A DNA stretch of 31,896 nucleotides from a virus: the IMG/VR virus record IMGVR_UViG_3300032288_000411, positions 1-31,896 of that record. One strand, written 5' to 3'. The position numbers and the translations under genes are program-made. Shown here in pieces: positions 8,160 through 31,139 of this stretch. A model generated the notes under the pieces. It did no database searches, had not been told where the DNA came from, and was given only the letters and a program-made list of their open reading frames with translations. Within the stretch, counting starts at the first letter, position 1, and the number at the start of each line of letters is the position of its first letter.

Positions 8160-11100
8160 ATGGTATCGACACTCATTGCGGCTGGTGCAAATTATTTGGT
8201 AACAACGTTTGGCATTAGCGTCACAGCGGCAACGTTTGCCGTTAGTTTTGCATTGTCACAAGTTGTTTCCCGCATATTTGCTGAGAACCCAGAATCACAG
8301 CAAGACATGGGTGTTCGTCAACAAGTACCGCCAAGCCAAGTAAACGCCATTCCTATTGTTTACGGCGATGCGTATATGGGCGGTACGTTCGTTGATGCTG
8401 TGCTGACAACAGACCAAAAAACAATGTATTACGTTTTGGCTATCTCAAGCATTAGCCAAGCAAATGCAACGTTAGGAACAGCGGCGGGTGTGTTTAACTT
8501 TGACACAACCAAGATGTACTACGGCGACCGCTTGATTACTTTTGATGGAACAGACCTGACAAAAGTTGTTAGCCTGACCGATGAAGCGGGTAATGTTGAT
8601 ACAAAGATTAGTGGCAATCTATACATTAACCTTTACAAATCTAGTAACGCGGGTGTTATTACTTCTGTTAACGGTGCGTCTGCGCCAAGTACAGTTATGG
8701 GCGGTTCGGACATTGCGGTTGCGCAAAGATGGCCCGCCACCAACAGACAAATGAACAACTTGGCATTTGCCATTGTCAAACTTGTTTACAACCGTGATGC
8801 TGACACTACGCAACTTAACCCAATCACATTCAAAGTAAGCCATTACCCCAATGGTGCAAGCGTTGCAAAACCCGCAGATGTTTGGCTTGATTACATTACA
8901 AACGAATCCTATGGCGGCGCAGTTGACCCTGCATTTGTTGACACAACTTGCGTGGCTACGCTTAACGCATACTCAGATGCTTTAATTACTTATACGCCTT
9001 CTGGCGGTGGCTCACCCGTTACACAAGCGCGTTACAGAATCAATGGTGTGTTAGACGCGGGACAAACTGTATTGTCAAACCTTGACCGCATCATGTCTGC
9101 TTGCGATTCGTGGATGACGTATAACGCGGCACTTGGTCAATGGTCTATTGTTATTAACAAAGCGGAAACTGCCGCATACGCGTTTACAGATAACAACATC
9201 ATTGGCGACATTCGTGTTAGCGCAACAGATATTACATCGTCAATCAATCAAGTTGAAGCAAGATTTCCGTTTAAAGAAAACCGCGACCAAGCGGCATTTG
9301 TTAACTTGGAAACACCGTCTGGATTGCTGTACCCTAACGAACCCGTTAACAAATATTCCATTACTTATGATTTGGTTAACGATTCGGTTCAGGCTCAGTA
9401 CCTTGCCAACCGATTGTTGGAACAAGCACGCGAAGATTTGATTGTTAGTTTCAGCACCACTTTTTACGGCATCCAAGTTAACGCGGGTGATGTGGTTAGC
9501 GTAACCAATACTGATTTTGGTTGGTCTGCTAAATTGTTCCGCGTAATGAAAGTTAATGAGGCTTCATTGCCTGATGGAACACTAGGTGCAAAACTAGAGT
9601 TAAACGAATACAGCGCGGATGTTTACGATGACCAAAACGTTACTCAATACGCGCCAATTGCAAATTCTAATTTGCCATCGCCATCATATTTTTCATCATT
9701 ATCTGCGCCTACAGTTTCGGCATCTTATCCGTCTGCAACAATTCCATCTTTTGATGTAACCGTTACAGTACCGACAACGGGTCGCGTTACGTTTGGCACT
9801 TTGTATTACACAACAACGCCCGCAGTTTCTACCAGTTGGTTGGTTTTGTCTGTTGCAAATTCAGTTAATAATATTCCTGTTGCTAATGGTTCAACATATA
9901 CATTTGCAAATCTTACATTACCTGCGGCGACATATTATTTTGCATTTACCGTAGGCAATGAAATTGGTACATCCACAAAAAGCCCAAATAGTACGGCTTT
10001 TTCTTGGACACCTATAGGAATGGTTGGGCCAACAGGGGACAATGGTTTAACCGCACTAACTGCTTACAAAGTACAAAGCCAATCTAGTGCAACGCCGACA
10101 TTTACAACGCCTACAAGCGGTGCGACAGCCCCTAGCGGATGGTCATTAACAACGCCCGCTATTACTGTTGGTCAAGTAATGTGGTACATCCAAGGTCGAT
10201 ATAACAGCAATGCGGTTACGGTAGATGGCGTAGCGGCAAACACAACGGCGTGGACAGGCCCGATAGCGGCAAGCGTATTCCAAGACATTCGTTCTGACAA
10301 CTGGAATGGTTCAACGCCACCTACATACGGTACACCTGCAACTTATGGCACAACGGGTTATTACATTCAGCAATCAACAGGCGATTGTTATTTTAACGAT
10401 GGCGTTTTTCGTGCCGACATTAACACAAGTGGTGATGCTGTTTTTGAAGGCAAAAATGCTGAAACAACATATCCTATTGTTGTTAGTGGTGCAAATTACA
10501 ACATTGATTACAGCGCATTTGGTCTTGCAACAACAAATGCAACATTTCCTAATGTTCGCGTAGGTGTTTTAGGTGTTGGCGACTCAACAAGCGGTGTTGC
10601 AAATGTTGGAGTTGTTGGATTAGGTAAAAACAATTCAACAACACAAGGTGGTGTTGGTGTTGTTGGTCAAGGTGATGCTGTTGGCGGTTTGTTCTCAACA
10701 AATTATTTTTTTGGTTTTGGCTTACGTTGCGCAAACACAAATGGCGCTTCTAGTGCAATTGGTTTGTGGATTAGTGAAGGAACATTTAAATTTGGCAATT
10801 ACAACATATTGCCGCCATCTGGTTCAACAACTACGTTTTTAAGAAATGACGGAACATGGGCTACACCTAGTGGTGGTGCAACTCCCGCAGGTTCAAATAC
10901 ACAAATCCAATATAACAATGCGGGTGCGTTTGGTGCAACTGGAAACTTAACTTATACAGGTACAGCATTAAACGCTTTTGGTGTTTATATTAGTTCTGGC
11001 AATGGTTCTCATTTCACCAATATTGCTATTGGTGGAAATGTATTGAGCGTGGCAAATGCCACTTTTGCACAATACAACACAGGAACTGGTTATGAAGCCT

Positions 11101-12161
11101 TAAAAAACTGCACAACTGGTAGCGCACACACAGCACTTGGCTATCAAGCATTAAAAAGCAATACTTTTGGTAATTACTGTACTGCTGTTGGCTATTTAGC
11201 GTTAACAAATCACACTACTGGAAACAACAATACTGCTGTTGGTTATGACTGTTCATCAGCGGCAATGTCTGGTTCAGGCAACACCGCAATGGGTTCAGAA
11301 TCTTTAAAGTCATGCACAACAGGTTCTTACAATGCAGTTTTTGGATTAAGTGCTGGTTATTCAATAACAACTGGTGGTCAAAATACTGGCATTGGTTTTT
11401 ATGCTTTATACACAACATCAACAGGAACAGGAAATACTGGTGTTGGTTCTGAAGCATTAAGATCAAATAACACAGGCGCATACAACACAGCATTAGGATT
11501 TGCAAGTTTGTATAACAATACAAGCGGCGGTCAAAATGTTGCAATTGGACGGTCGGCACTATATAACAACACAATTAGTTATCAGAACACAGCAGTTGGA
11601 GATGGTGCTTTATCAAGCAATGTAAGTGCAGATAAAAATACTGCAGTTGGCAATGATTCTTTATCCGCAACAACAGCAACAACCAATACTGCAATAGGCT
11701 CAAGTTCGGGAGATACAAATACCACAGGCACAAACAACAGTTTTGTTGGTTATCAAGCCCGTGGTTCATCACCAACCACAAGTAATAACATTACTTTAGG
11801 TAATTCAAGCATTACAACTTTGCGATGCCAAGTAACAAGTATTACTGCATTGTCAGATGCTCGGGACAAGACAGATGTAAAACCTATTCAATCTGGTTTA
11901 GAGTTTGTTAAAAAACTAAACCCCGTGTCATTTACTTGGAACACAAGAGATGGGGCTAAAGTTGGTTTGCCAGACATGGGCTTTATTGCTCAAGAATTGG
12001 TGGAAGTTCAAAACCAAACGCAAACAATTCCTAATTTGGTTTCACATGACAACCCAGAAAAATTAGAAGCGGCTTATGGAACAATGTTCCCAATACTTAT
12101 TAAAGCGGTTCAAGAACTGACCGCTAAAGTTGAAGCGTTAGAAAAACAATTGAAAGGTTAA
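8160..12161 (+). CDS. Central tail tip/fibre protein with S74 self-cleaving chaperone domain
   Basis: This 1333-residue protein combines a gpJ-like tip with a fibre. Residues 1-45 are hydrophobic. About 200-510 match the Phage-tail_3-type region (YRINGVLDAGQTVLSNLDRI; later an NVTQYAP end). A fibronectin-like segment (about 515-615) and a short GPTG turn follow. About 971-1225 hold tandem 'G..NTAVG..AL' repeats, expected to form a trimeric beta-roll. From Ser1232 a Peptidase_S74 domain begins (LSDARDKTD); Ser1232 and Lys1237 have the five-residue spacing of the known catalytic dyad, so cleavage before Ser1232 should release a domain of about 102 residues. The ATG lies 2 bases after the previous stop. 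Confidence 0.85.
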   Translation: MVSTLIAAGANYLVTTFGISVTAATFAVSFALSQVVSRIFAENPESQQDMGVRQQVPPSQVNAIPIVYGDAYMGGTFVDAVLTTDQKTMYYVLAISSISQANATLGTAAGVFNFDTTKMYYGDRLITFDGTDLTKVVSLTDEAGNVDTKISGNLYINLYKSSNAGVITSVNGASAPSTVMGGSDIAVAQRWPATNRQMNNLAFAIVKLVYNRDADTTQLNPITFKVSHYPNGASVAKPADVWLDYITNESYGGAVDPAFVDTTCVATLNAYSDALITYTPSGGGSPVTQARYRINGVLDAGQTVLSNLDRIMSACDSWMTYNAALGQWSIVINKAETAAYAFTDNNIIGDIRVSATDITSSINQVEARFPFKENRDQAAFVNLETPSGLLYPNEPVNKYSITYDLVNDSVQAQYLANRLLEQAREDLIVSFSTTFYGIQVNAGDVVSVTNTDFGWSAKLFRVMKVNEASLPDGTLGAKLELNEYSADVYDDQNVTQYAPIANSNLPSPSYFSSLSAPTVSASYPSATIPSFDVTVTVPTTGRVTFGTLYYTTTPAVSTSWLVLSVANSVNNIPVANGSTYTFANLTLPAATYYFAFTVGNEIGTSTKSPNSTAFSWTPIGMVGPTGDNGLTALTAYKVQSQSSATPTFTTPTSGATAPSGWSLTTPAITVGQVMWYIQGRYNSNAVTVDGVAANTTAWTGPIAASVFQDIRSDNWNGSTPPTYGTPATYGTTGYYIQQSTGDCYFNDGVFRADINTSGDAVFEGKNAETTYPIVVSGANYNIDYSAFGLATTNATFPNVRVGVLGVGDSTSGVANVGVVGLGKNNSTTQGGVGVVGQGDAVGGLFSTNYFFGFGLRCANTNGASSAIGLWISEGTFKFGNYNILPPSGSTTTFLRNDGTWATPSGGATPAGSNTQIQYNNAGAFGATGNLTYTGTALNAFGVYISSGNGSHFTNIAIGGNVLSVANATFAQYNTGTGYEALKNCTTGSAHTALGYQALKSNTFGNYCTAVGYLALTNHTTGNNNTAVGYDCSSAAMSGSGNTAMGSESLKSCTTGSYNAVFGLSAGYSITTGGQNTGIGFYALYTTSTGTGNTGVGSEALRSNNTGAYNTALGFASLYNNTSGGQNVAIGRSALYNNTISYQNTAVGDGALSSNVSADKNTAVGNDSLSATTATTNTAIGSSSGDTNTTGTNNSFVGYQARGSSPTTSNNITLGNSSITTLRCQVTSITALSDARDKTDVKPIQSGLEFVKKLNPVSFTWNTRDGAKVGLPDMGFIAQELVEVQNQTQTIPNLVSHDNPEKLEAAYGTMFPILIKAVQELTAKVEALEKQLKG
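11072..11835 (+). repeat. Coding tandem repeats (G..NTAVG..AL) in the tip protein
   Basis: The encoded segment consists of about a dozen degenerate units of 16-24 residues built on G-x-x-N-T-A-V-G-x-x-A-L. Examples are GNNNTAVGYDCS, GTGNTGVGSEAL, GAYNTALGFASL and SADKNTAVGNDSL. The DNA copies have diverged, so the repeats are recognisable mainly as protein. Such repeats are common in trimeric adhesins and in shafts that precede an S74 domain. Bounds are approximate. Confidence 0.75.
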
Positions 12162-12514: not shown

Positions 12515-13003
12515 ATGGCTGTCTTTAACAAAAATACACTTGCACAAGTATCGGGATTTGACAATCCTATCCTTGCGGGTGAACTGGTTTATAACCAAAA
12601 TACTTATTGGAATTTGACATTCACGAATTCCAATACAAACTTGCCAATCAATCTGACAGGCGCAACAATTAACGCGCAAATTGTTCGCAGGGAAGTCACC
12701 AACATCATTGACACCCGCAACGGGTTGACATTTGATATTGCCGACTACACACCGACACCAACCGCTATTCCTCTGACCGTTTCCAACATTGTGGCGGCTT
12801 CAGGCACTTGCACTTTGGTTATTGATTCAACAACGTGGGGGCTAATCTCCACCGATGCCCAACTTGAAATTAACGCCACAAATTGCGTTGGCTATTCAGG
12901 TCGGGTTAAGGTTTCATTTCCCGCAAGTGGCTCGACACCCGCAGATGACCAAATCATCTTTTTGTTGTTCTTAGTGCGTTCTGACGGAATCGTGGTTGTA
13001 TGA
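12515..13003 (+). CDS. Tail/baseplate-type protein (BppU N-terminal-like beta sandwich)
   Basis: The 162-residue protein is beta-rich and low in charge. It contains a segment reading WNLTFTNSNTNLPINLTGAT followed by INAQIVRRE, which resembles the N-terminal domain of upper baseplate proteins and similar adaptor domains ('...dltGa.i..qir...'). The C-terminal half (SNIVAASGTCTLVIDST) continues the sandwich. It ends in an ATGA overlap with the giant fibre gene, so it may be the adaptor that links the fibre to the tail tip. That link is an inference from order and coupling. Confidence 0.5.
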   Translation: MAVFNKNTLAQVSGFDNPILAGELVYNQNTYWNLTFTNSNTNLPINLTGATINAQIVRREVTNIIDTRNGLTFDIADYTPTPTAIPLTVSNIVAASGTCTLVIDSTTWGLISTDAQLEINATNCVGYSGRVKVSFPASGSTPADDQIIFLLFLVRSDGIVVV

Positions 13004-16000
13004 GCAAAGGCATTATCGTATCCCCTGCGAATAGGGGCGTTCAGGTTGTTGTAACGGACGAGAACAATGTGCAACTCTTGGTTGATAGCAACCGAGGGGT
13101 TAACCTTGAAATCGTGCCACAGCCCCGTATAGAGGTTTTGGTTGACAAGGGTGTTGAGGGCGCACAAGGGCCAGCGGGGGAGGGTGTCCCTACAGGCGGC
13201 ACTACAGGTCAAGTTTTAGCCAAAGCAAGCAATGCAAACTATGACACAGTTTGGGCAACCATTACAGGCACTTTGGTATATCAGGGTTCTTGGAACGCAT
13301 CTACAAATACACCTACGCTGACTTCTAGTGTTGGCACAAACGGTTATTACTACGTTGTTGGCACAAGCGGCTCTACTAACCTGAACGGCATTACCGATTG
13401 GGTAGTTGGTGATTGGGCAATTTTTAATGGTTCTGTTTGGCAAAAGATTGACAACACAGACCTAGTGTCATCTGTTAATGGGCAAACAGGCGTAGTTGTT
13501 TTGGATGCGGCTGATGTAGGTGCGTTCCCTGCTACACCAACAACAGGGTCTGGAAATGTTGTACTTGATACTGCGCCAACATTAAACAACCCAACAATTA
13601 GCAACTATGAGGCTTTTACACCTTCATCTGTTCCTAGTTATGTAGAAGGTCGCACTTGGTACGATTCCAACAAACACGCACTTGCTTATTACAATGATTC
13701 ATCTAATGATGTAGTTCATATTGGACAAGATTTAATTGTTAAAGTAATTAACAATACAGGTTCGACCATTCCAAATGGTTCACCTGTTTACATTACATCA
13801 ACATCTAGCGGTCAAAGTTATCCTAATATTGCTTTAGCAAAGGCTGATGTTGCGGCAACTTCTGCTGTTATTGGATTGACCAATGGTTCTATTGCTAATG
13901 GTGCAATTGGATATGTAACTTCACAAGGCGGTATTGATAACGTCAACACAAGCACATTTACTGTTGGACAAGTTTTGTATCTTAGCCCGTATTCTGCGGG
14001 TCAATTGATGAATACATTACCACCAACAGGGATTACTGTTCAAGTTGGTGTGGTTCAATATGTTAATTCTTCAACAGGAATTATCTATGTAAAACAGACT
14101 ACGCCTTTGTCTGTTCCCGCTTCTATCATTACAGGTACATTGCCTATTGCCAATGGTGGTACAGGCGCAACTACAGCATCAGGCGCAAGAACTAACCTTG
14201 GTTTAGGAACTATTGCCACACAAGATGCAAGCAACGTAGCCATCACAGGCGGCACGATTGACAACACAGTCATAGGTGGCACAACCCCTGCGGCTGGTAC
14301 GTTTACTACGCTTACTGCTACTGGACAGACTTCTTTAGGTGGTGTGGCTGGGGCTGAGGGTTTGCGTGTAAATACTACAGCAAGTGCAAATCGTTATTTA
14401 ATTGCTTCTGGTTCAAATGGTGGGACTCCAAGTTTTGGCGCAAGTGCTGGAGCATTGGTTCTGTATGGTGGCCCTAGTCAAGGTATTGCATTTTATTCAA
14501 ACGGCTACTCACAAGCGCAATTCAATATTGCCCACACCGCATCAGCAGTCAATTACGTTCAGGTGACTGGTGCGGCTACTACAGCATCACCAATAATTTC
14601 TGCGCAAGGTTCTGACTCAAATATTTCTTTGCGTCTTGATGCAAAAGGCGGTGGTTCAATTACGTTTATCACTGGTGGCGCATTACAAGCCGCAGTACAA
14701 CACACAGCATCTTCAATTAACTATTTAGGTTTTACTGGAAGTACCACAGGAAATGCAGTTCGTTTGTTTGCCGCTGGCACAGACACCAACATCTCCCAAG
14801 TATTCCAATCCAAAGGAACAGGAGCAATAGACCTAGCCGCTGGTAGTTCAGGGGTGAATATCTCTAATGGTGGTACTGTTACTGCTATTACGAGGACTGC
14901 AACTGGTTCAGGTTATACATCTGTTCCATCTGTAGCACTTACAGCACCAACAACCGCTGGCGGTGTTCAAGCAACTGGTAATGCAATAGTTCAAAACACA
15001 AACGCAACTATTGCTAATGGTGGTACTGGATACACCGTTGGCGACACCATAACCATGGTTGGTGGCACTTTGCAAAGTGGTGGTGCTGGAACATTTAGAG
15101 TTGCTACTGTTTCTGGTGGTGTAATTACTTCTGTTGATACGCCAAATTATTCTCAGTATTCAGCAGTTCCAACTAATCCTGTTTCGGTAACTGGGGGAAC
15201 AGGCACAGGCGCAACACTTACTGTAAGTTATATTTTTGGTTACGTTGTTATCACCAACGCAGGTTCAGGCTATGTAGAACAACCAACAGTAAGTTTCTCT
15301 GGTGGCGGTGGTAGTGGTGCGGCGGCTTATGCGACTGTGGGGTCTGGAACTGTTGTTAAAGGTCTTGGCACAAACTTCGATGTATTTACTGCTAACGCAA
15401 ACCGAGCATTTCGATTTTACGATAGCAATTCCACGGGTGTTAACTATTGGTCTGCTTCAAACGGAACAACGCCAGTTTTGTATGCAACAGGAAGTTCCAA
15501 TACTTCTGCCGCAATTATTACAAACGGAACTGGTTCTGTAAGTTTCCAATCTGCAGGTGGGGCATCAACACAGATGCAAGCAGCCCACACAGCCTCTGCT
15601 GTTAACTATGTACAAGTAACAGGGGCGGCTACTGGTGGTGGCCCTGCTATTACGGCACAAGGTTCTGATTCAAGCATCAATTTGGCGTTGTCCGCAAAAG
15701 GCACTGGTGGGGTATTTGCAACCACTTACTTTGGCGCTGGAACTGCGTCTACAAACTACATACAACTTGCTGGTGCTTCAACAAGTGTGCCTCCAACTGT
15801 AAAAGCATTAGGTGGCGACACAAACATCCCATTAGTCCTACAACCAAAAGGAACAGGCGCACTCCAAGCCCAACAGACAGACTCTACTGCTACTGGTGGT
15901 AATGCTAGGGGTGCTAATGCTGTTGATTGGCAGACAAGTAGAAGTACATCTGCACGAATTGCATCTGCTCAATTCAGCGTTGTTTCAGGTGGAAATAATA

Positions 16001-17262
16001 ATGCGGCACAAGGCTACTCTGCAACTGCATCTGGTGGCGAATCTTCATTAGCATCAGGTGCATATAGTTATGTTGGCGGTGGCTCTCTTAATACTGCATC
16101 TAGCACATGGAGTGCAACTGTTGGTGGCGCATCAAACGTAAGTGCGGGTTTATACAATTTTGTTGGTGGTGGTTTTACCAATGCAGGAACATCTGGTTCT
16201 GCGGTAACTACTCAAAGCGCAACCATGAACGGCACGACTGCCGTGACTCTTTCAGGTTCAAACGCTTCAATCAAAGTTGGTCAATACATTACAGGAACAT
16301 CAATTTCTGGTGACACTTATGTAGCGGCTGTTAGTGGCACATCTCTTACTCTGTCTAAGGTAGCAAGTGGTTCATCAACATCAACCCTATCCTTTTACAC
16401 CCCTCATGGAGTAGTTGTAGGAGGAGGTAATAACCAAGCCACAGGCTCTTACAGTTTCATCGGTGGTGGTGGTGATGCTGGAACTGCGGCTAATAGAAAC
16501 AGAGCAAGCGGTGATTGGTCTATTGTTGTTGGAGGAATACAAAATACTGCAAGTGGTATTGGTTCATTTATTGGTGGCGGTGGTACTTATGGAAGTGGTT
16601 TTGCTGGTAATGCGGCAAGCGGTACATCAACTTTTGTTGGTGCTGGTTATTTAAATAGTGCTGGCGGTTTTGCGGGTACAGTTGTTGGCGGTAGTAGCAA
16701 TTTCCAAACACTAAATGCAGGTTTTATTGGCGGTGGTGCTAATAACACAGTAAATTCTAGTCAAAGTGTGATTAGTGGTGGTACTTATGGAACAACTCGT
16801 TCAATAGAAGGAAGTCATGTTTTTCCAGCGTGTAACAACCCTATAGCATCCGCTTCTGGTGTTTCACAAAGTGCATTGCTTATTCTTGGAACGCAAACAA
16901 CAGATGCAACTGCAACAGTTCTGCGGTCAAACACATCAGCCGCATCCACAACCAACCAAGTAATCCTACCCAACAACTCTGCTTACACTTTCCGAGGTGA
17001 AATAGTCTCAGGAGTAACAGGTGGTGGAAACTCAAAGAGTTGGACTATTGAAGGTCTGATTAAGCGTGGTGCAAATGCCGCTTCTACAACTCTTGTTGGT
17101 AGCACAGTAACATCCATGTATGCAGATGCAGGTGCAGTAACTTGGACAATTGCACTATCAGCCGACACAACCAATGGCGGTTTGGCAGTAACATTCACGG
17201 GTCAAGCATCGACTACCATCAGAACAGTATGTTCTATCAGAACTACGGAAATGACATTCTGA
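13000..17262 (+). CDS. Large repeat-rich tail fibre
   Basis: This 1420-residue, glycine/threonine/serine-rich protein is almost certainly a trimeric fibre. An N-terminal anchoring region (residues 1-55) is followed by a short collagen-like GAQGPAGEG, then beta-helical regions. Repeats of about 45 residues (HTAS.VNY.Q.TGA...) occur near 511, 567, 862 and 911, a GSGYTSVPSV-type repeat pair near 640-780, and YadA-like head repeats (SYVGGGSLNTASS and similar) from about 1000 to 1270. A compact C-terminal domain (from about 1320) ends in CSIRTTEMTF. No S74 domain is present, unlike the upstream tip protein. Its last bases overlap an HNH gene. Confidence 0.85.
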   Translation: MSKGIIVSPANRGVQVVVTDENNVQLLVDSNRGVNLEIVPQPRIEVLVDKGVEGAQGPAGEGVPTGGTTGQVLAKASNANYDTVWATITGTLVYQGSWNASTNTPTLTSSVGTNGYYYVVGTSGSTNLNGITDWVVGDWAIFNGSVWQKIDNTDLVSSVNGQTGVVVLDAADVGAFPATPTTGSGNVVLDTAPTLNNPTISNYEAFTPSSVPSYVEGRTWYDSNKHALAYYNDSSNDVVHIGQDLIVKVINNTGSTIPNGSPVYITSTSSGQSYPNIALAKADVAATSAVIGLTNGSIANGAIGYVTSQGGIDNVNTSTFTVGQVLYLSPYSAGQLMNTLPPTGITVQVGVVQYVNSSTGIIYVKQTTPLSVPASIITGTLPIANGGTGATTASGARTNLGLGTIATQDASNVAITGGTIDNTVIGGTTPAAGTFTTLTATGQTSLGGVAGAEGLRVNTTASANRYLIASGSNGGTPSFGASAGALVLYGGPSQGIAFYSNGYSQAQFNIAHTASAVNYVQVTGAATTASPIISAQGSDSNISLRLDAKGGGSITFITGGALQAAVQHTASSINYLGFTGSTTGNAVRLFAAGTDTNISQVFQSKGTGAIDLAAGSSGVNISNGGTVTAITRTATGSGYTSVPSVALTAPTTAGGVQATGNAIVQNTNATIANGGTGYTVGDTITMVGGTLQSGGAGTFRVATVSGGVITSVDTPNYSQYSAVPTNPVSVTGGTGTGATLTVSYIFGYVVITNAGSGYVEQPTVSFSGGGGSGAAAYATVGSGTVVKGLGTNFDVFTANANRAFRFYDSNSTGVNYWSASNGTTPVLYATGSSNTSAAIITNGTGSVSFQSAGGASTQMQAAHTASAVNYVQVTGAATGGGPAITAQGSDSSINLALSAKGTGGVFATTYFGAGTASTNYIQLAGASTSVPPTVKALGGDTNIPLVLQPKGTGALQAQQTDSTATGGNARGANAVDWQTSRSTSARIASAQFSVVSGGNNNAAQGYSATASGGESSLASGAYSYVGGGSLNTASSTWSATVGGASNVSAGLYNFVGGGFTNAGTSGSAVTTQSATMNGTTAVTLSGSNASIKVGQYITGTSISGDTYVAAVSGTSLTLSKVASGSSTSTLSFYTPHGVVVGGGNNQATGSYSFIGGGGDAGTAANRNRASGDWSIVVGGIQNTASGIGSFIGGGGTYGSGFAGNAASGTSTFVGAGYLNSAGGFAGTVVGGSSNFQTLNAGFIGGGANNTVNSSQSVISGGTYGTTRSIEGSHVFPACNNPIASASGVSQSALLILGTQTTDATATVLRSNTSAASTTNQVILPNNSAYTFRGEIVSGVTGGGNSKSWTIEGLIKRGANAASTTLVGSTVTSMYADAGAVTWTIALSADTTNGGLAVTFTGQASTTIRTVCSIRTTEMTF
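14530..15880 (+). repeat. Coding repeats of about 45 residues in the large fibre
   Basis: At least four copies of a unit reading approximately 'HTAS.VNY.Q.TGA.T...P...A.GSD.NI.L.L..KGTG' begin at about 14530, 14698, 15583 and 15730. The middle is interrupted by a GSGYT-type repeat segment. Copies one and three share the string HTASAVNYVQVTGAAT in protein while their DNA differs at many third positions. The pattern suggests stacked beta-helix rungs. Bounds are approximate. Confidence 0.65.
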
Positions 17263-17951
17263 TGAGAAAAACCAGAGTAGAAACTAAACCACGCAAGTCT
17301 AGATTGACTTGTCCTAATGGGCATTTGACCCGTGATAAAGCGTGGCTTGAAGAAAAATACTTTGGCGAAAACTTGTCTATTTCTAAGATTGCTGAGTTAA
17401 TTCCATGTGACTATGGAACAATCCATAAGGCGTTTAAACGTCTTGGAATTGTTTGTAAGCCTAAACATATTACTTATGGTGACATAAGTTATCCGCCAAG
17501 ACATAGTCACCATAATGGTAAATGGACTGGTGGCAAAAACAAATGCCAAGATTGTGAAAAACAATTAACTTCTTACAAGGCAATTAGATGCAAAAGTTGC
17601 CAAAATTTATTTAATCGTGGCGAAAACAATCCTTGCTGGAAACCGCCAGAACAACGAGTTGGTACAGAAACAGAAATCATCAGGAATTCTGGCGAATATA
17701 AAGCGTGGCGTATAAGCGTTTGGGCTAGAGATAAATCAAAATGCCAAATTTGTGGCATACGCAAAGACCCAATGGTTGCTCATCATTTAGATGGATTTAA
17801 TCTATTTCCTGAAAAACGCTTTGATATAGATAATGGTGTAACTTTATGCGATTATCATCACATTGCATTCCATTCAAATTATGGCTTTGGAAATAACACC
17901 AAAGAACAGTTTGAAGAATTTAAGATTCGCACGACAGAAATGACCTATTAA
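17262..17951 (+). CDS. HNH homing endonuclease with HTH, inserted after the fibre gene
   Basis: The 229-residue protein has an N-terminal helix-turn-helix (LSISKIAELIPCDYGTIHKA, about residues 38-57), a zinc-binding region (C95-x2-C98 and C110-x2-C113), and an HNH nuclease domain: C161-x2-C164, H174/H175 in AHHLDG, N191 in NGVTLC, and H199/H200 with H204. Such proteins cut DNA at specific sites to spread their own gene. The ATG at 17262 overlaps the fibre stop (TGATG); an upstream in-frame start at 17142 would lie inside the fibre gene and was rejected. Its last residues, IRTTEMTY, copy the fibre end (IRTTEMTF). Confidence 0.85.
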   Translation: MRKTRVETKPRKSRLTCPNGHLTRDKAWLEEKYFGENLSISKIAELIPCDYGTIHKAFKRLGIVCKPKHITYGDISYPPRHSHHNGKWTGGKNKCQDCEKQLTSYKAIRCKSCQNLFNRGENNPCWKPPEQRVGTETEIIRNSGEYKAWRISVWARDKSKCQICGIRKDPMVAHHLDGFNLFPEKRFDIDNGVTLCDYHHIAFHSNYGFGNNTKEQFEEFKIRTTEMTY

Positions 17952-17962
17952 GGAGAACTCAA

Positions 17963-18232
17963 TTGGCACTTTTAATTCAAGCAACTAACAACACAAACGG
18001 ACAACAGGAAGCCCAAGCCTATGCCCGTATCACTAACTTCTTTGGTACAAAAGACCAAATCCAAGTTCAAGTGGAAATCCATGCAACAGAGCAAGCCCGT
18101 CAAGCAGGATGGCCCTCTATCCAACAACAGGCTCACTACATCAACATGGCTGATTTACAAGGCGACTTGATTCCCGCTATGTACAATGTTATCAAAACCT
18201 TTACCCAATACCAAGGTGCAACAGACGTATGA
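17963..18232 (+). CDS. Small protein, 89 residues, TTG start
   Basis: A TTG at 17963 lies 7 bases after a strong AGGAG (17951-17955), which decides the start; the site begins on the last base of the HNH stop. The product has a strand-like opening (MALLIQATNN), a polar glutamine-rich middle and a helix at the end (GDLIPAMYNVIKTFTQYQG). No known motif was recognised. Before the HNH gene arrived it would have followed the fibre gene directly, so it may assist fibre assembly; this is a positional guess. Confidence 0.65.
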   Translation: MALLIQATNNTNGQQEAQAYARITNFFGTKDQIQVQVEIHATEQARQAGWPSIQQQAHYINMADLQGDLIPAMYNVIKTFTQYQGATDV

Positions 18233-25434: not shown

Positions 25435-25776
25435 ATGCGTTCAAAAACTACTTATGCCGAAAGGCTATTAGACCCCCGTTGGCAACAAATGCGCTTGCGT
25501 GTATTTGAACGGGATGGATGGAAATGCGTAACTTGTGAAAAAAGCACAAAAACGCTAAATGCACATCATGTTCACTATCACCCATTAGCCGAAGGGCCGT
25601 GGGATTACGACATAGAAACAATTATTACTTTATGTGCCGAATGTCATTCTGATGAACACATTGAATTAGATTGCGCCAAAGCAAATTTAATTCATGCCAT
25701 CATAAAAAAAGGTTACAAAACTGCTTATGCGTTTGATTGTTTAACAACTTTACTTGAAACGGATGGGAATGTATGA
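25435..25776 (+). CDS. HNH endonuclease, 113 residues
   Basis: The protein has the small HNH pattern: C31-x2-C34 (KCVTCEK), AHHVHYHPLAEGPWDY with His44/His45, and ITLCAECHSDEH with C67-x2-C70 and His71. The usual asparagine before ITLC is replaced by threonine or a glutamate nearby, so activity might be altered. Such single-domain HNH proteins occur near replication genes of many phages and may nick DNA. The start follows the structured leader with GGAG eight bases ahead, and the stop overlaps the replication gene start (ATGA). Confidence 0.8.
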   Translation: MRSKTTYAERLLDPRWQQMRLRVFERDGWKCVTCEKSTKTLNAHHVHYHPLAEGPWDYDIETIITLCAECHSDEHIELDCAKANLIHAIIKKGYKTAYAFDCLTTLLETDGNV

Positions 25777-26895: not shown

Positions 26896-27125
26896 AAGAC
26901 TTATTTGGTGATGAAGAATTCAATTGGGAAAAAGAATGGCAAGGTATGCCTGAATTTATCCAAGATGATTTATCTGAAATTCATAGCATTACAGTTCATT
27001 TTTTAACAACAGAAGATATGTTGAAATTTTCTGAATTAATTGGCAAAAACATTACATTCACAACAAAAAGTGTTTTATTTCCAGTAACCAAAACAGAAAA
27101 AAAGGTGTGGAAAGATGAATCCTAA
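26892..27125 (+). CDS. Small partner protein of the glycosyltransferase-like gene
   Basis: This 77-residue acidic protein opens with NWEKEWQGMPEFIQDD and continues ITVHFLTTEDMLKFSELIGK, ITFTTKSVLFP. From memory, a similar small gene with the pattern 'EWxGMPEF ... F..LIGQ.......TKSIW' sits beside TAGT-type glycosyltransferase genes in many phages, so it is probably a conserved partner. Its own biochemical role is not known. It overlaps the upstream gene by four bases and the downstream one by 11. Confidence 0.65.
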   Translation: MKDLFGDEEFNWEKEWQGMPEFIQDDLSEIHSITVHFLTTEDMLKFSELIGKNITFTTKSVLFPVTKTEKKVWKDES

Positions 27126-27975
27126 ACACCCCGTTTACATTGTTTCTAAAGGTAGGTGGGAATCAAGGCTTACAAGTAAAGCCTTTGAAGAAATGCAAGT
27201 TCCCTACTTTATTGTTGTTGAAGAACAAGAGTACGAACAATATGCTTCGGTTATTGCCGCAGAAAAAATCTTAATCTTGGATAAACAATATTTGCTTGAT
27301 TACGATACTTGCGACAAGTTGGGTAATTCTTTGGGCGTAGGGCCTGGCGCGGCACGAAACTTCTGTTGGCAACACTCAATTTCAATTGGTGCATCTTGGC
27401 ATTGGGTACTTGATGACAACATTGATGGGTTTTGCCGCCTTAATCGTAATGAAAGACACAAAGTTACTTCAGGTACTATTTTCCGAATTGCTGAAGATTT
27501 TGTAGAACGATATGAAAATGTTTCGCAAGCGGGATTTGAGTACAGATTTTTTGCGGGTGGTAGTAGAAGAAAAAAACCCGCTTTTCGCCTTAACACGCGC
27601 ATTTACTCTTGCATCTTAAACAGGAATGATGTTCCCTACCGTTGGCGCGGAAGGTACAACGAAGATACGGATTTATCTTTAAGAATGTTGAAAGATGGTT
27701 GGTGTACCGTTTTGTTTCAATGCTTTTTGCAAAACAAAGCCGCAACGCAAACCGTTAAAGGGGGCAATACAGCGGAGTTTTATGAAAAAGAAGGAACACT
27801 ACCAAAATCGCAAATGTTGGTAAATTTGCACCCTGATATATCAAGGTTGGCGTTTAGATATAACAGACACCATCACCATGTTGACTACAGCGTTTTTCAA
27901 AAAAATCAATTAGTTAAAAAACATGGAATCATTATTCCTGATGGTGTAAATAACTACGGAATGATTTTGGTATGA
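27115..27975 (+). CDS. TET/JBP-associated-type glycosyltransferase (TAGT-like)
   Basis: The 286-residue protein fits the phage TAGT family linked to DNA base glycosylation (and related to trypanosome base J glucosyltransferase): PVYIVSKGRWESRLTSKAFE at the start, WVLDDNIDGF with D100/D101/D104 (DxD-like GT-A motif), RWRGRYNEDTDLSLRML with E183/D184/D186, KGGNTAEFY, and NRHHHHVDYS followed by VNNYGMILV. It could add a sugar to a modified base, protecting phage DNA from nucleases. No TET/JBP oxygenase gene is in the window, so the acceptor is open. The start lies 11 bases inside the partner gene. Confidence 0.75.
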   Translation: MNPKHPVYIVSKGRWESRLTSKAFEEMQVPYFIVVEEQEYEQYASVIAAEKILILDKQYLLDYDTCDKLGNSLGVGPGAARNFCWQHSISIGASWHWVLDDNIDGFCRLNRNERHKVTSGTIFRIAEDFVERYENVSQAGFEYRFFAGGSRRKKPAFRLNTRIYSCILNRNDVPYRWRGRYNEDTDLSLRMLKDGWCTVLFQCFLQNKAATQTVKGGNTAEFYEKEGTLPKSQMLVNLHPDISRLAFRYNRHHHHVDYSVFQKNQLVKKHGIIIPDGVNNYGMILV

Positions 27976-29548: not shown

Positions 29549-29993
29549 GCGCAAGATTTGGGCATTGTTAGACCCAATAGCCCATAGCATTGTTGGGGCA
29601 TCTTACACACCGCGGCAAACCTTGGACAAACTGCGGCTAACCGAATATGCCGCTTTAGAATCAATAATGAAAGGCGTTGGCACAATACAAGATTGGCGCA
29701 CCTTAGTTGATTTGCTTAACCTAGCGGAAATGTTTGCGCGTAACAACATCGGAAAAGATGAAGTGTTACCCGTATGCCAAAAAGCCCAAGATGCACTATA
29801 TAAAGCCGCTATGCGTTACCAAGAAACAATGCGCATAGGTTTAGACGGTGTTGGCATCCAAGCCATCAGGGATTTAATCGAATATGCTGATTTGCAACAG
29901 GGAAGCGTAACCCGTGCTGAATTTGAACGCTTGGTACAAAAAACCCGCGATTACATCAAATCAAACGGCAACCTAGTGGTTGAAATTGAATGA
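29532..29993 (+). CDS. Conserved phage hypothetical protein, 153 residues
   Basis: The protein begins with a basic stretch (MRKRTKRKIWALLDPIAHSI) and is otherwise helical (EYAALESIMKGVGTIQDWRT, LVDLLNLAEMFARNNI, DALYKAAMRYQETM). The pattern 'R.L..P...........L......al.al..G.a...dw..l...lN.a..la' matches a phage family that commonly lies near the NinB/antitermination-type genes in other phages, but no function is established. It is coupled to the next gene by ATGA. Confidence 0.6.
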   Translation: MRKRTKRKIWALLDPIAHSIVGASYTPRQTLDKLRLTEYAALESIMKGVGTIQDWRTLVDLLNLAEMFARNNIGKDEVLPVCQKAQDALYKAAMRYQETMRIGLDGVGIQAIRDLIEYADLQQGSVTRAEFERLVQKTRDYIKSNGNLVVEIE

Positions 29994-30319
29994 GATTCCC
30001 CAAACACCAATACATCCGTAGCCAAACCCTTTTGCGCAACGCCCGCGAAATACCATGCCAACATTGCGGCGCTAATGATGGAACGGTGATAGCCGCACAC
30101 ACAAATTGGCAAGGCGGCAAAGGTCGGGGCATTAAAGCCGATGACAACCTAATTGCAAGTTTGTGCTATTCATGTCACATGGAAATCGACCAAGGCGGCA
30201 AATTAGATAAAGCCGAACGCCAAAAGATATGGCTTGCCGCACATTTGCAAACGGTGCGAAAATTACAGGCGTTGGGCTTATGGCCTACCGACGTTCCACT
30301 ACCTGAAGGGTTAATATGA
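29990..30319 (+). CDS. YbcO-like (DUF1364) HNH-fold nuclease
   Basis: The 109-residue protein has PCQHCGANDG (C23, C26), an AAHTNWQGGKGRGIKADDN segment with His37, and SLCYSCHMEIDQGG (C59, C62, His63, Asp67). This is the layout of YbcO/DUF1364 proteins, a lambdoid-prophage family with an HNH-like fold and zinc sites. They lie in the recombination (nin-type) regions and are thought to be nucleases. ATGA overlap joins it to both neighbours, the next being a DUF5856-like gene. Confidence 0.75.
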   Translation: MRFPKHQYIRSQTLLRNAREIPCQHCGANDGTVIAAHTNWQGGKGRGIKADDNLIASLCYSCHMEIDQGGKLDKAERQKIWLAAHLQTVRKLQALGLWPTDVPLPEGLI

Positions 30320-30708
30320 AATTCCGTGCCGAAGCCGTACAAACCGACCCCGTAATGCAGTTTGTCCAATGCCTACTGCATAGCGTTACCAATGCGCACA
30401 TTCTGCATTTCCAAAGCCTAAGTTATTCACAGCACATGGCGTTGGGCGCTTATTACGATGAAGTAAGCGACTTAGTAGATGGGTTTGTTGAAGCGTTCCA
30501 AGGTAAGTACGGGCTATTGACCAACTACAAAGCCGATTACGAACTGCCCGATAGCAACCCCGTTGTTTACCTAACCTACCTAAAAGATGAAGTGGCAACC
30601 CTGCGCCGTATGCCTAAGTTCCCGCAAGATAGTGAACTGCAAAACGAAGTAGATACGATTGCCAACCTAATCAATAGCACCCTATACAAACTGCGATTCC
30701 TAGCCTAA
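30316..30708 (+). CDS. DUF5856-like conserved phage protein, 130 residues
   Basis: The helical protein has QFVQCLLHSVTNAHILHFQS, then YSQHMALGAYYDEVSDLVDG, FVEAFQGKYGLLTNY and a C-terminal ANLINSTLYKLRFL. These pieces occur in the same order in the DUF5856 family, whose helices and histidine/glutamate positions look ferritin-like. The function is not known. It directly precedes the terminase-type HNH gene, with a one-base TAATG overlap. Confidence 0.75.
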   Translation: MKFRAEAVQTDPVMQFVQCLLHSVTNAHILHFQSLSYSQHMALGAYYDEVSDLVDGFVEAFQGKYGLLTNYKADYELPDSNPVVYLTYLKDEVATLRRMPKFPQDSELQNEVDTIANLINSTLYKLRFLA

Positions 30709-31139
30709 TGCCATCACTACCGTCTAACAGTAAGTGCTCAGAACTACGGTGCAAGAACCCTAGAAGTAGGCTTAACACCTACTGTTTAGAACATGGCGGC
30801 ATGGATAATATGGAACGGCGCGAAACGGATAGCGCCTACCAAACACCATTATGGAAAAGTATTAGGGCTGTACAGATAAGCAAACAACCCCTATGCCAAG
30901 GTTGTTTAGCGCGTGGCATAGTGACCGCGGCAAAGCATATCGACCACTTGTTTGCATGGAAGCACATAGGTGGGCAAGCCTTTTCACATAACATTTTTCA
31001 AAGTCTTTGCCATAATTGTCACTCCCAAAAATCAGGGCTAGAAAAGCAAGGCATCTACAGGCATTATGCCCAAGACGGTGTTAAAGACTACAGTAAGCAT
31101 GACTACGCGTATATGGTGAAGAATGAACAAAGGGCATGA
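30708..31139 (+). CDS. HNH endonuclease of the terminase-adjacent type
   Basis: The 143-residue protein has an N-terminal cysteine/histidine knuckle (C10, C15, C26, H29), then an HNH domain: CQGC at 63-66, AAKHIDHLFAWKHIGGQAFS with Asp79/His80, Asn95 in HNIFQSLCHNCH, and C101/C104/His105. Phage HNH proteins of this type are usually encoded just before the terminase genes and assist DNA packaging by nicking at the cohesive-end site. Here a GIY-YIG gene follows instead, overlapping by 17 bases, with terminase genes presumably beyond the window. Confidence 0.8.
   Translation: MPSLPSNSKCSELRCKNPRSRLNTYCLEHGGMDNMERRETDSAYQTPLWKSIRAVQISKQPLCQGCLARGIVTAAKHIDHLFAWKHIGGQAFSHNIFQSLCHNCHSQKSGLEKQGIYRHYAQDGVKDYSKHDYAYMVKNEQRA

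Follow-up and report, generated by a model that had tools for sequence, protein, structure and literature searches.

A mobile HNH endonuclease gene that appears to displace the native 3' end of a phage tail fiber gene

We analyzed a 31.9-kb virus record (the window, meaning the whole stretch of DNA) in which an HNH endonuclease gene follows a tail fiber-like gene and encodes nearly the same C terminus. Comparison with relatives favors the reading, to which we assign a probability of about 0.7, that a mobile HNH gene without a stop codon of its own was inserted inside the last codons of the fiber gene, that the end attached to the fiber was recoded, and that the native fiber end, together with its stop codon and the ribosome-binding site that follows, was displaced in frame onto the HNH gene. 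With the native end behind it in its own frame, the HNH gene uses the stop codon of the fiber gene.

RESULTS

Organization of the fiber and HNH genes

The host gene of the insertion (positions 13000 to 17262, plus strand) is an open reading frame (ORF) for a 1,420-amino-acid tail fiber-like protein (phrog_31460 tail protein, E = 5e-20) with a C-terminal domain that is common to more than 100 viral loci. Its last nine codons, for SIRTTEMTF (17233 to 17259, plus strand), are those that we regard as recoded, judging from the nearest HNH-less fibers and from the counts of ACAAC given below. The fiber stop and the HNH start overlap in TGATG (17260 to 17264, plus strand; TGA at 17260 to 17262, ATG from 17262), as a sequence-only reading of this DNA had stated, and this overlap probably couples HNH translation to that of the fiber. 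The HNH gene itself (17262 to 17951, plus strand; 229 amino acids; PF13391, phrog_8446) lacks a stop codon of its own, and its C terminus, IRTTEMTY followed by TAA (17925 to 17951, plus strand), is the putative displaced native fiber 3' end, identified by its near match to the HNH-less relative L013. This TAA opens TAAGGAG (17949 to 17955, plus strand), in which the native fiber stop overlaps the ribosome-binding site of the downstream gene, an arrangement that is likewise present behind the fiber in the HNH-less L013, L014, and L015. The same reading had placed a ribosome-binding site right after the HNH stop, and GGAG is indeed found at 17952 to 17955, ahead of the TTG start at 17963 of an 89-amino-acid gene (17963 to 18232, plus strand; 312 related loci), which forms the right flank of the empty site and adjoins the fiber gene directly in HNH-less phages. 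The HNH gene is also bracketed by an 8-bp direct repeat, GAAATGAC, with its left copy at 17248 to 17255 and its right copy at 17937 to 17944, both on the plus strand.

The fiber ORF ends in ATC AGA ACT ACG GAA ATG ACA TTC TGA, and the HNH ORF ends in ATT CGC ACG ACA GAA ATG ACC TAT TAA. Thus, IRTTEMTF and IRTTEMTY agree at 7 of 8 residues and 16 of 24 nucleotides while only 2 of 8 third positions are equal, which bears out the earlier statement that the two ends differ at most third positions. We found no Rfam match at E values up to 1 between positions 16800 and 18400, and thus no group I intron signal, and a Pfam scan of the HNH protein gave no intein motif; splicing is unneeded because the fiber and HNH proteins are encoded by separate ORFs joined by TGATG.

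The HNH protein

The window HNH protein scores 22.5 bits against PF13391 (HNH_2; cutoff of 21, E = 1e-4), which places it in that family, and matches phrog_8446 with an E value of 1e-19. It has a helix-turn-helix-like N-terminal segment, zinc-ribbon-like cysteines, and an HNH_2 core, and residues H174, H175, N191, H199, H200, C161, and C164 are invariant across 10 HNH homologs. The dN/dS values of the HNH body, mostly 0.07 to 0.4, indicate purifying selection. A structure model from 10 sequences is weak (mean pLDDT, 61.9; pTM, 0.30), with a confident prediction only for the helix-turn-helix-like N terminus, and residues 226 to 229 are disordered in this low-confidence model. Outgroup HNH proteins from two isolated phages, Vibrio phage K249 and Bacillus phage Staley, stop a few residues past the common NNTxxQF segment and have no tail, so we rejected the tail as an ancestral part of the HNH protein. 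One scan of bacterial genomes with the HNH alignment found no relative, and among isolated phages we found only distant HNH relatives and one distant fiber-end match, in a cyanophage record.

HNH carriers and HNH-less relatives

The relatives described here are metagenomic contigs, some from related samples, that were gathered by similarity to the window, and the counts below are therefore neither independent nor population frequencies. Scans of metagenomic viral contigs gave 15 distinct complete HNH ends of the window type (family 1), all 15 of which have a tail that reads TTEMT[YF] or an altered or decayed form of it (IRTTEMT[YF], xTTTEMT[YF], AETAEMTF, or TVELVY; the tail of L009 is altered to TAEMTF, and one of the 15 ends is decayed). 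The HNH start overlaps the fiber stop, as TGATG or TAATG, at every intact family 1 5' junction, and the fibers upstream of family 1 HNH genes all have the same C-terminal domain as the window fiber. The boundary between HNH body and tail is clade specific, being FKIRTTEMTY or YLATTTEMTY. In a second HNH clade (the L clade), the native end behind the HNH gene starts at TTEMTY, that is, with the last six codons only, and the exact insertion point therefore differs between clades. We also observed the same HNH design behind a paralogous first fiber gene in L200 (3001 to 3675), L201, and L202, where the junction is TAATG and the tail has decayed to TVELVY before TATGACAATC.

About 90 HNH-less fibers typically end in ..QIRTTEMTY (or KLETTEVTF or KIETTEMTY), followed by TAA, the ribosome-binding site, and the next gene; in the codon and ACAAC comparisons below, tandem fibers with overlapping starts were counted as HNH-less. 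Comparison with these fibers places the insertion in the IRTTEMT codons, in agreement with the proposal that a mobile HNH cassette had entered the end of the fiber gene, and the HNH tail matches the 3' end of HNH-less fibers up to and including the ribosome-binding site. The window and the HNH-less L013 differ by a single mismatch over the stretch that begins with the HNH tail, crosses the spacer, and enters the next gene, and the tail and right flank of L002 are identical to those of the HNH-less L037 over 48 nucleotides (nt). L014 is a near-empty-site relative, with 276 of 295 positions identical in the left 300 nt and 845 of 891 on the right, or about 94 to 95% identity on the near flanks. 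The left arm of the window is identical over 41 nt to the HNH-less L015; thus, phages that lack the HNH gene can have the window-type recoded end as well, through either HNH loss or a natural allele.

The HNH gene probably holds the native end and the fiber a recoded copy

Synonymous variants and spacers of the HNH tails track the right flank and not the HNH body (permutation P = 3e-4). Between L002 and L008, for example, dS is 1.3 in the HNH body, while the tail has no synonymous difference, showing that body and tail are uncoupled. Carrier fibers depart from the nearest HNH-less fiber only in codons -9 to -5, where identity is 0.38 to 0.73 in carriers versus 0.76 to 0.89 in controls, and their upstream codons are like those of controls; the divergence of the last eight fiber codons also differs between carriers and controls (Mann-Whitney U test, P = 1e-5). 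At codons -6 and -5, ACAAC is found in 0 of 15 carrier fibers, 71 of 97 HNH-less fibers (26 of the 97 lack it), and 12 of 15 HNH tails (P = 4e-8), the 15 carriers including L184, which has a second, diverged HNH; for family 1 alone the count is 0 of 14. The recodings differ among carriers (ACTGTG, ACTACG, ACTTGC, AGTTGC, AGTACG, and AGTACA), and GAAATGAC is mostly kept in their fiber ends. In L008 and L178, the alteration is largely limited to the T-T region and the host-specific codons on either side remain, a pattern suggestive of local convergence. Given a tail that tracks the flank and a fiber end that is recoded, we conclude that the HNH gene holds the native end and the fiber the recoded copy. 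This reverses the sequence-only reading, which had taken the HNH tail for the end of a foreign, related fiber mimicked by the nuclease; the tail fits best as the displaced native end, and it is the copy attached to the fiber that changed.

Probable mobility and loss of the HNH gene, and another HNH family at the site

On a tree of the fiber C-terminal domain from which the end codons were excluded, 13 carriers require 13 changes and no two carriers cluster. Together with the near-empty L014, this gives the patchy presence and matching empty alleles by which homing endonucleases are recognized. Some HNH-less fibers resemble former carriers. L015 and L033/L034, in which the left end is of the carrier type and the right end normal, look like the products expected of recombination at the shared GAAATGAC, and L069, L072, L113, and L164 have a carrier-type TVEMTY-TGA fiber end with odd spacers and are possible scars of lost HNH genes. 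We infer that gain and loss of the HNH gene likely both occur.

A second HNH family occupies the same site. In L209 to L211 it follows an intact native fiber end (..QIRTTEMTY-TAATG), and in L212 it lies a few bases further on. These proteins end in ..SNLAEII, ..SNLTEVN, or ..SNLSELI, with no RTTEMTY tail, and in the complete second-family records (L209 to L212), the fiber retains ACAAC. The second family fits the prediction of the displacement model that a gene without a displaced end is accompanied by no recoding. The Glu at the same offset in the second-family ends could be a relic or chance. L206/L184, also of this family, has a recoded TVE fiber end, and its HNH 3' end lies beyond the end of the contig.

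DISCUSSION

Proposed mechanism

In the mechanism that we propose, the HNH enzyme would cut the uninterrupted native fiber end, within a region that may run from codons upstream of RTT through GAAATGAC. Recombinational repair from a carrier phage would then copy the cassette into the cut fiber end. Neither junction of the resulting carrier should be cut, the left one lacking the central target bases through recoding and the right one having HNH sequence in place of the upstream half. The native copy on the right retains most of the proposed target, which obliges the scheme to assume a site reaching further upstream. Through the TGATG overlap, translation of the HNH gene would be coupled to that of the fiber, as has been argued for the UAAUGA stop/start overlap of T4 nrdA and mobE (PMC2988022). 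The cost to the host gene would be low, with the fiber retaining a full-length end and the downstream gene its ribosome-binding site; the next gene should be unaffected because the native stop overlapping that site (TAAGGAG) is kept. The tail of the nuclease would be a by-product that tolerates decay.

It is plausible that recoding shields the nuclease target, as the earlier reading had also supposed, because carriers lack the common ACAAC bases. Avoidance of recombination between the two copies of the end would explain the recoding equally well. We give odds only a little better than even to a wider interpretation in which these genes form a natural phage "home-and-rescue" element: a stopless HNH gene would supply a cleavage-resistant, recoded 3' end to the fiber and adopt the native end, stop, and ribosome-binding site, so that the operon is preserved, and the element would recur across numerous environmental phages and at the ends of two paralogous fiber genes.

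Alternative explanations

The most serious alternative concerns the meaning of the recoding rather than the displacement. The changed fiber end may have nothing to do with protection from cleavage, having come in by co-conversion from a diverged donor fiber or having been selected because it keeps the direct copies from recombining and thereby removing the HNH gene. We consider this possible, though less probable than not: L015 and L033/L034 resemble precise GAAATGAC-repeat recombination products, L069, L072, L113, and L164 (TVE, TGA stop, odd spacers) resemble deletion scars, and TVE/TCE-type ends are present elsewhere in the fiber family, but the kept host-specific codons of L008 and L178, with a T-T region altered in several ways, suggest local convergence and not import. 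A different question is whether the fiber-like tail is the recipient's displaced end at all. It could instead belong permanently to the HNH gene and serve as a right homology arm that the recipient acquires from the donor along with the nuclease, as might be supposed from the conservation of the tail protein in all complete family 1 copies, from the two clade-specific boundaries (FKIRTTEMTY and YLATTTEMTY), and from the comparison of L003 with L033, its nearest allele lacking the HNH gene, in which the L003 tail reads CGCACAACC and the L033 end reads CGCAGTACA. We judge a carried arm unlikely. Tail variants and spacers go with the right flank (P = 3e-4) and vary independently of the HNH body, and the fit of the window tail to L013, like that of the L002 tail to L037, continues past the stop into the downstream gene.

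Selection for the tail as a functional mimic, that is, a fiber-like peptide that binds the fiber or virion or regulates the HNH protein, seems to us very improbable. The IRTTEMTY of the K clade is indeed identical in protein sequence but for one Y/F difference while its synonymous sites are saturated (tail pN of 0, pS up to about 1), yet equal conservation is expected of a tail inherited from constrained fibers. The tail is also decayed in L200 to L202 (TVELVY) and altered in L009 (TAEMTF), the low-confidence model is disordered at residues 226 to 229, and the second HNH family does without a tail at the same site. As for the 7-of-8 match at the C termini being a coincidence, or the result of a simple local tandem duplication in which the HNH gene had no part, we give this almost no weight: the match recurs in all fiber-linked family 1 copies, empty sites exist, and the background among ORF pairs speaks against it. 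Among 5,206 nearby ORF pairs across all fetched loci, 29 have at least 5 of their last 8 residues in common, and 26 of these 29 are the fiber/HNH pair in different records; one of the other three is a pair of tandem paralogous genes in the window, and two are single unrelated pairs. This background rules out a chance resemblance of the fiber and HNH C termini.

Relation to known systems

The closest counterparts to the displaced-end arrangement favored here are fungal mitochondrial mobile ORFs with C-terminal duplication, known from atp6 of Allomyces macrogynus and from atp6, atp9, cox2, and nad3 of Glomus (PMC3630166). In these, an endonuclease ORF lies near the 3' end of the host gene, which runs on into a substitute C terminus, and the native C terminus is found downstream and matches close relatives (PMC3630166). 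In the window, too, an endonuclease ORF interrupts a host gene within its 3' end, the host gene has an in-frame substitute end, and the displaced native end downstream is nearer to relatives than the substitute is, although the L clade, with only its last six codons native, shows this less plainly. In contrast to the fungal cases, the insertion is in a phage structural gene, no more than about nine codons are exchanged, and the endonuclease frame runs on through the native end, using its stop and the overlapping ribosome-binding site. Because the fungal class is defined by a mitochondrial location and a LAGLIDADG or GIY-YIG enzyme, and the window is a virus record with an HNH enzyme, we describe this element as working like the fungal mobile ORFs rather than as a member, and we claim no kinship. 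The sequence-only reading knew of no described example of such a nuclease end. For phages this holds in the literature that we searched, where we found no displaced-end HNH (most subscription papers lay outside the coverage), but a fungal mitochondrial counterpart has been described (PMC3630166).

Among phage systems, the free-standing HNH genes mobA to mobE of T-even phages resemble the present case in lying between two phage genes, in a start that overlaps the upstream stop, and in patchy presence; however, T4-type HNH genes adjoin intact genes or a split gene, and the portion of that source covered here reports no displaced, recoded host-gene end as the enzyme's C terminus (PMC2988022). The ShiLan-type HNH hidden in phage methylases is also an insertion that is neither intron nor intein and keeps the frame open, but there the host gene reads through the insertion in another frame, (PMC11855218), whereas the fiber gene in the window terminates and has a substitute end. 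In the HomeR drive, a cassette sits in the C-terminal part of the gene that it cuts and restores that gene with a re-coded 3' end (PMC7968924). HomeR is an engineered Cas9 system in flies (PMC7968924), and we draw an analogy of working and not of kinship, with cleavage resistance in the phage case being putative.

If correct, our interpretation adds phages and HNH enzymes to the range of a mode of gene invasion, found by us described only for fungal mitochondria, in which the invader substitutes the end of its host gene and itself takes on the old one. Carriers are many and scattered, some alleles are nearly empty, others bear likely scars of loss, and a second HNH family occupies the site without end exchange. 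This natural experiment could reveal the way in which a homing element, by recoding its target gene, gains protection for itself, a design problem that is shared with engineered rescue drives. It also carries a caution, since C termini common to neighboring genes may be displaced ends and not domain homology.

Other genes in the window

Several other genes of the window merit description. A TET-associated glycosyltransferase (TAGT; PF20691, E = 6e-43) is encoded at 27115 to 27975, suggesting that the DNA of this phage may be hypermodified. The tandem paralogous genes at 1644 to 2138 (164 amino acids, ending in YGWSNNA) and 2148 to 2669 (173 amino acids, ending in YGWSNNT) likely encode tail tube-type proteins. 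A second fiber-like gene, at 8160 to 12161, combines a tail-tip N terminus (J-like, Phage-tail_3) with a Peptidase_S74 chaperone C terminus; the nearest match of its product among isolates is to Methylophilaceae phage P19250A (37%), a hint that the host may be a betaproteobacterium. Near the right end are three small HNH-like genes (25435 to 25776, 29990 to 30319, and 30708 to 31139), the ends of which are unlike those of their neighbors.
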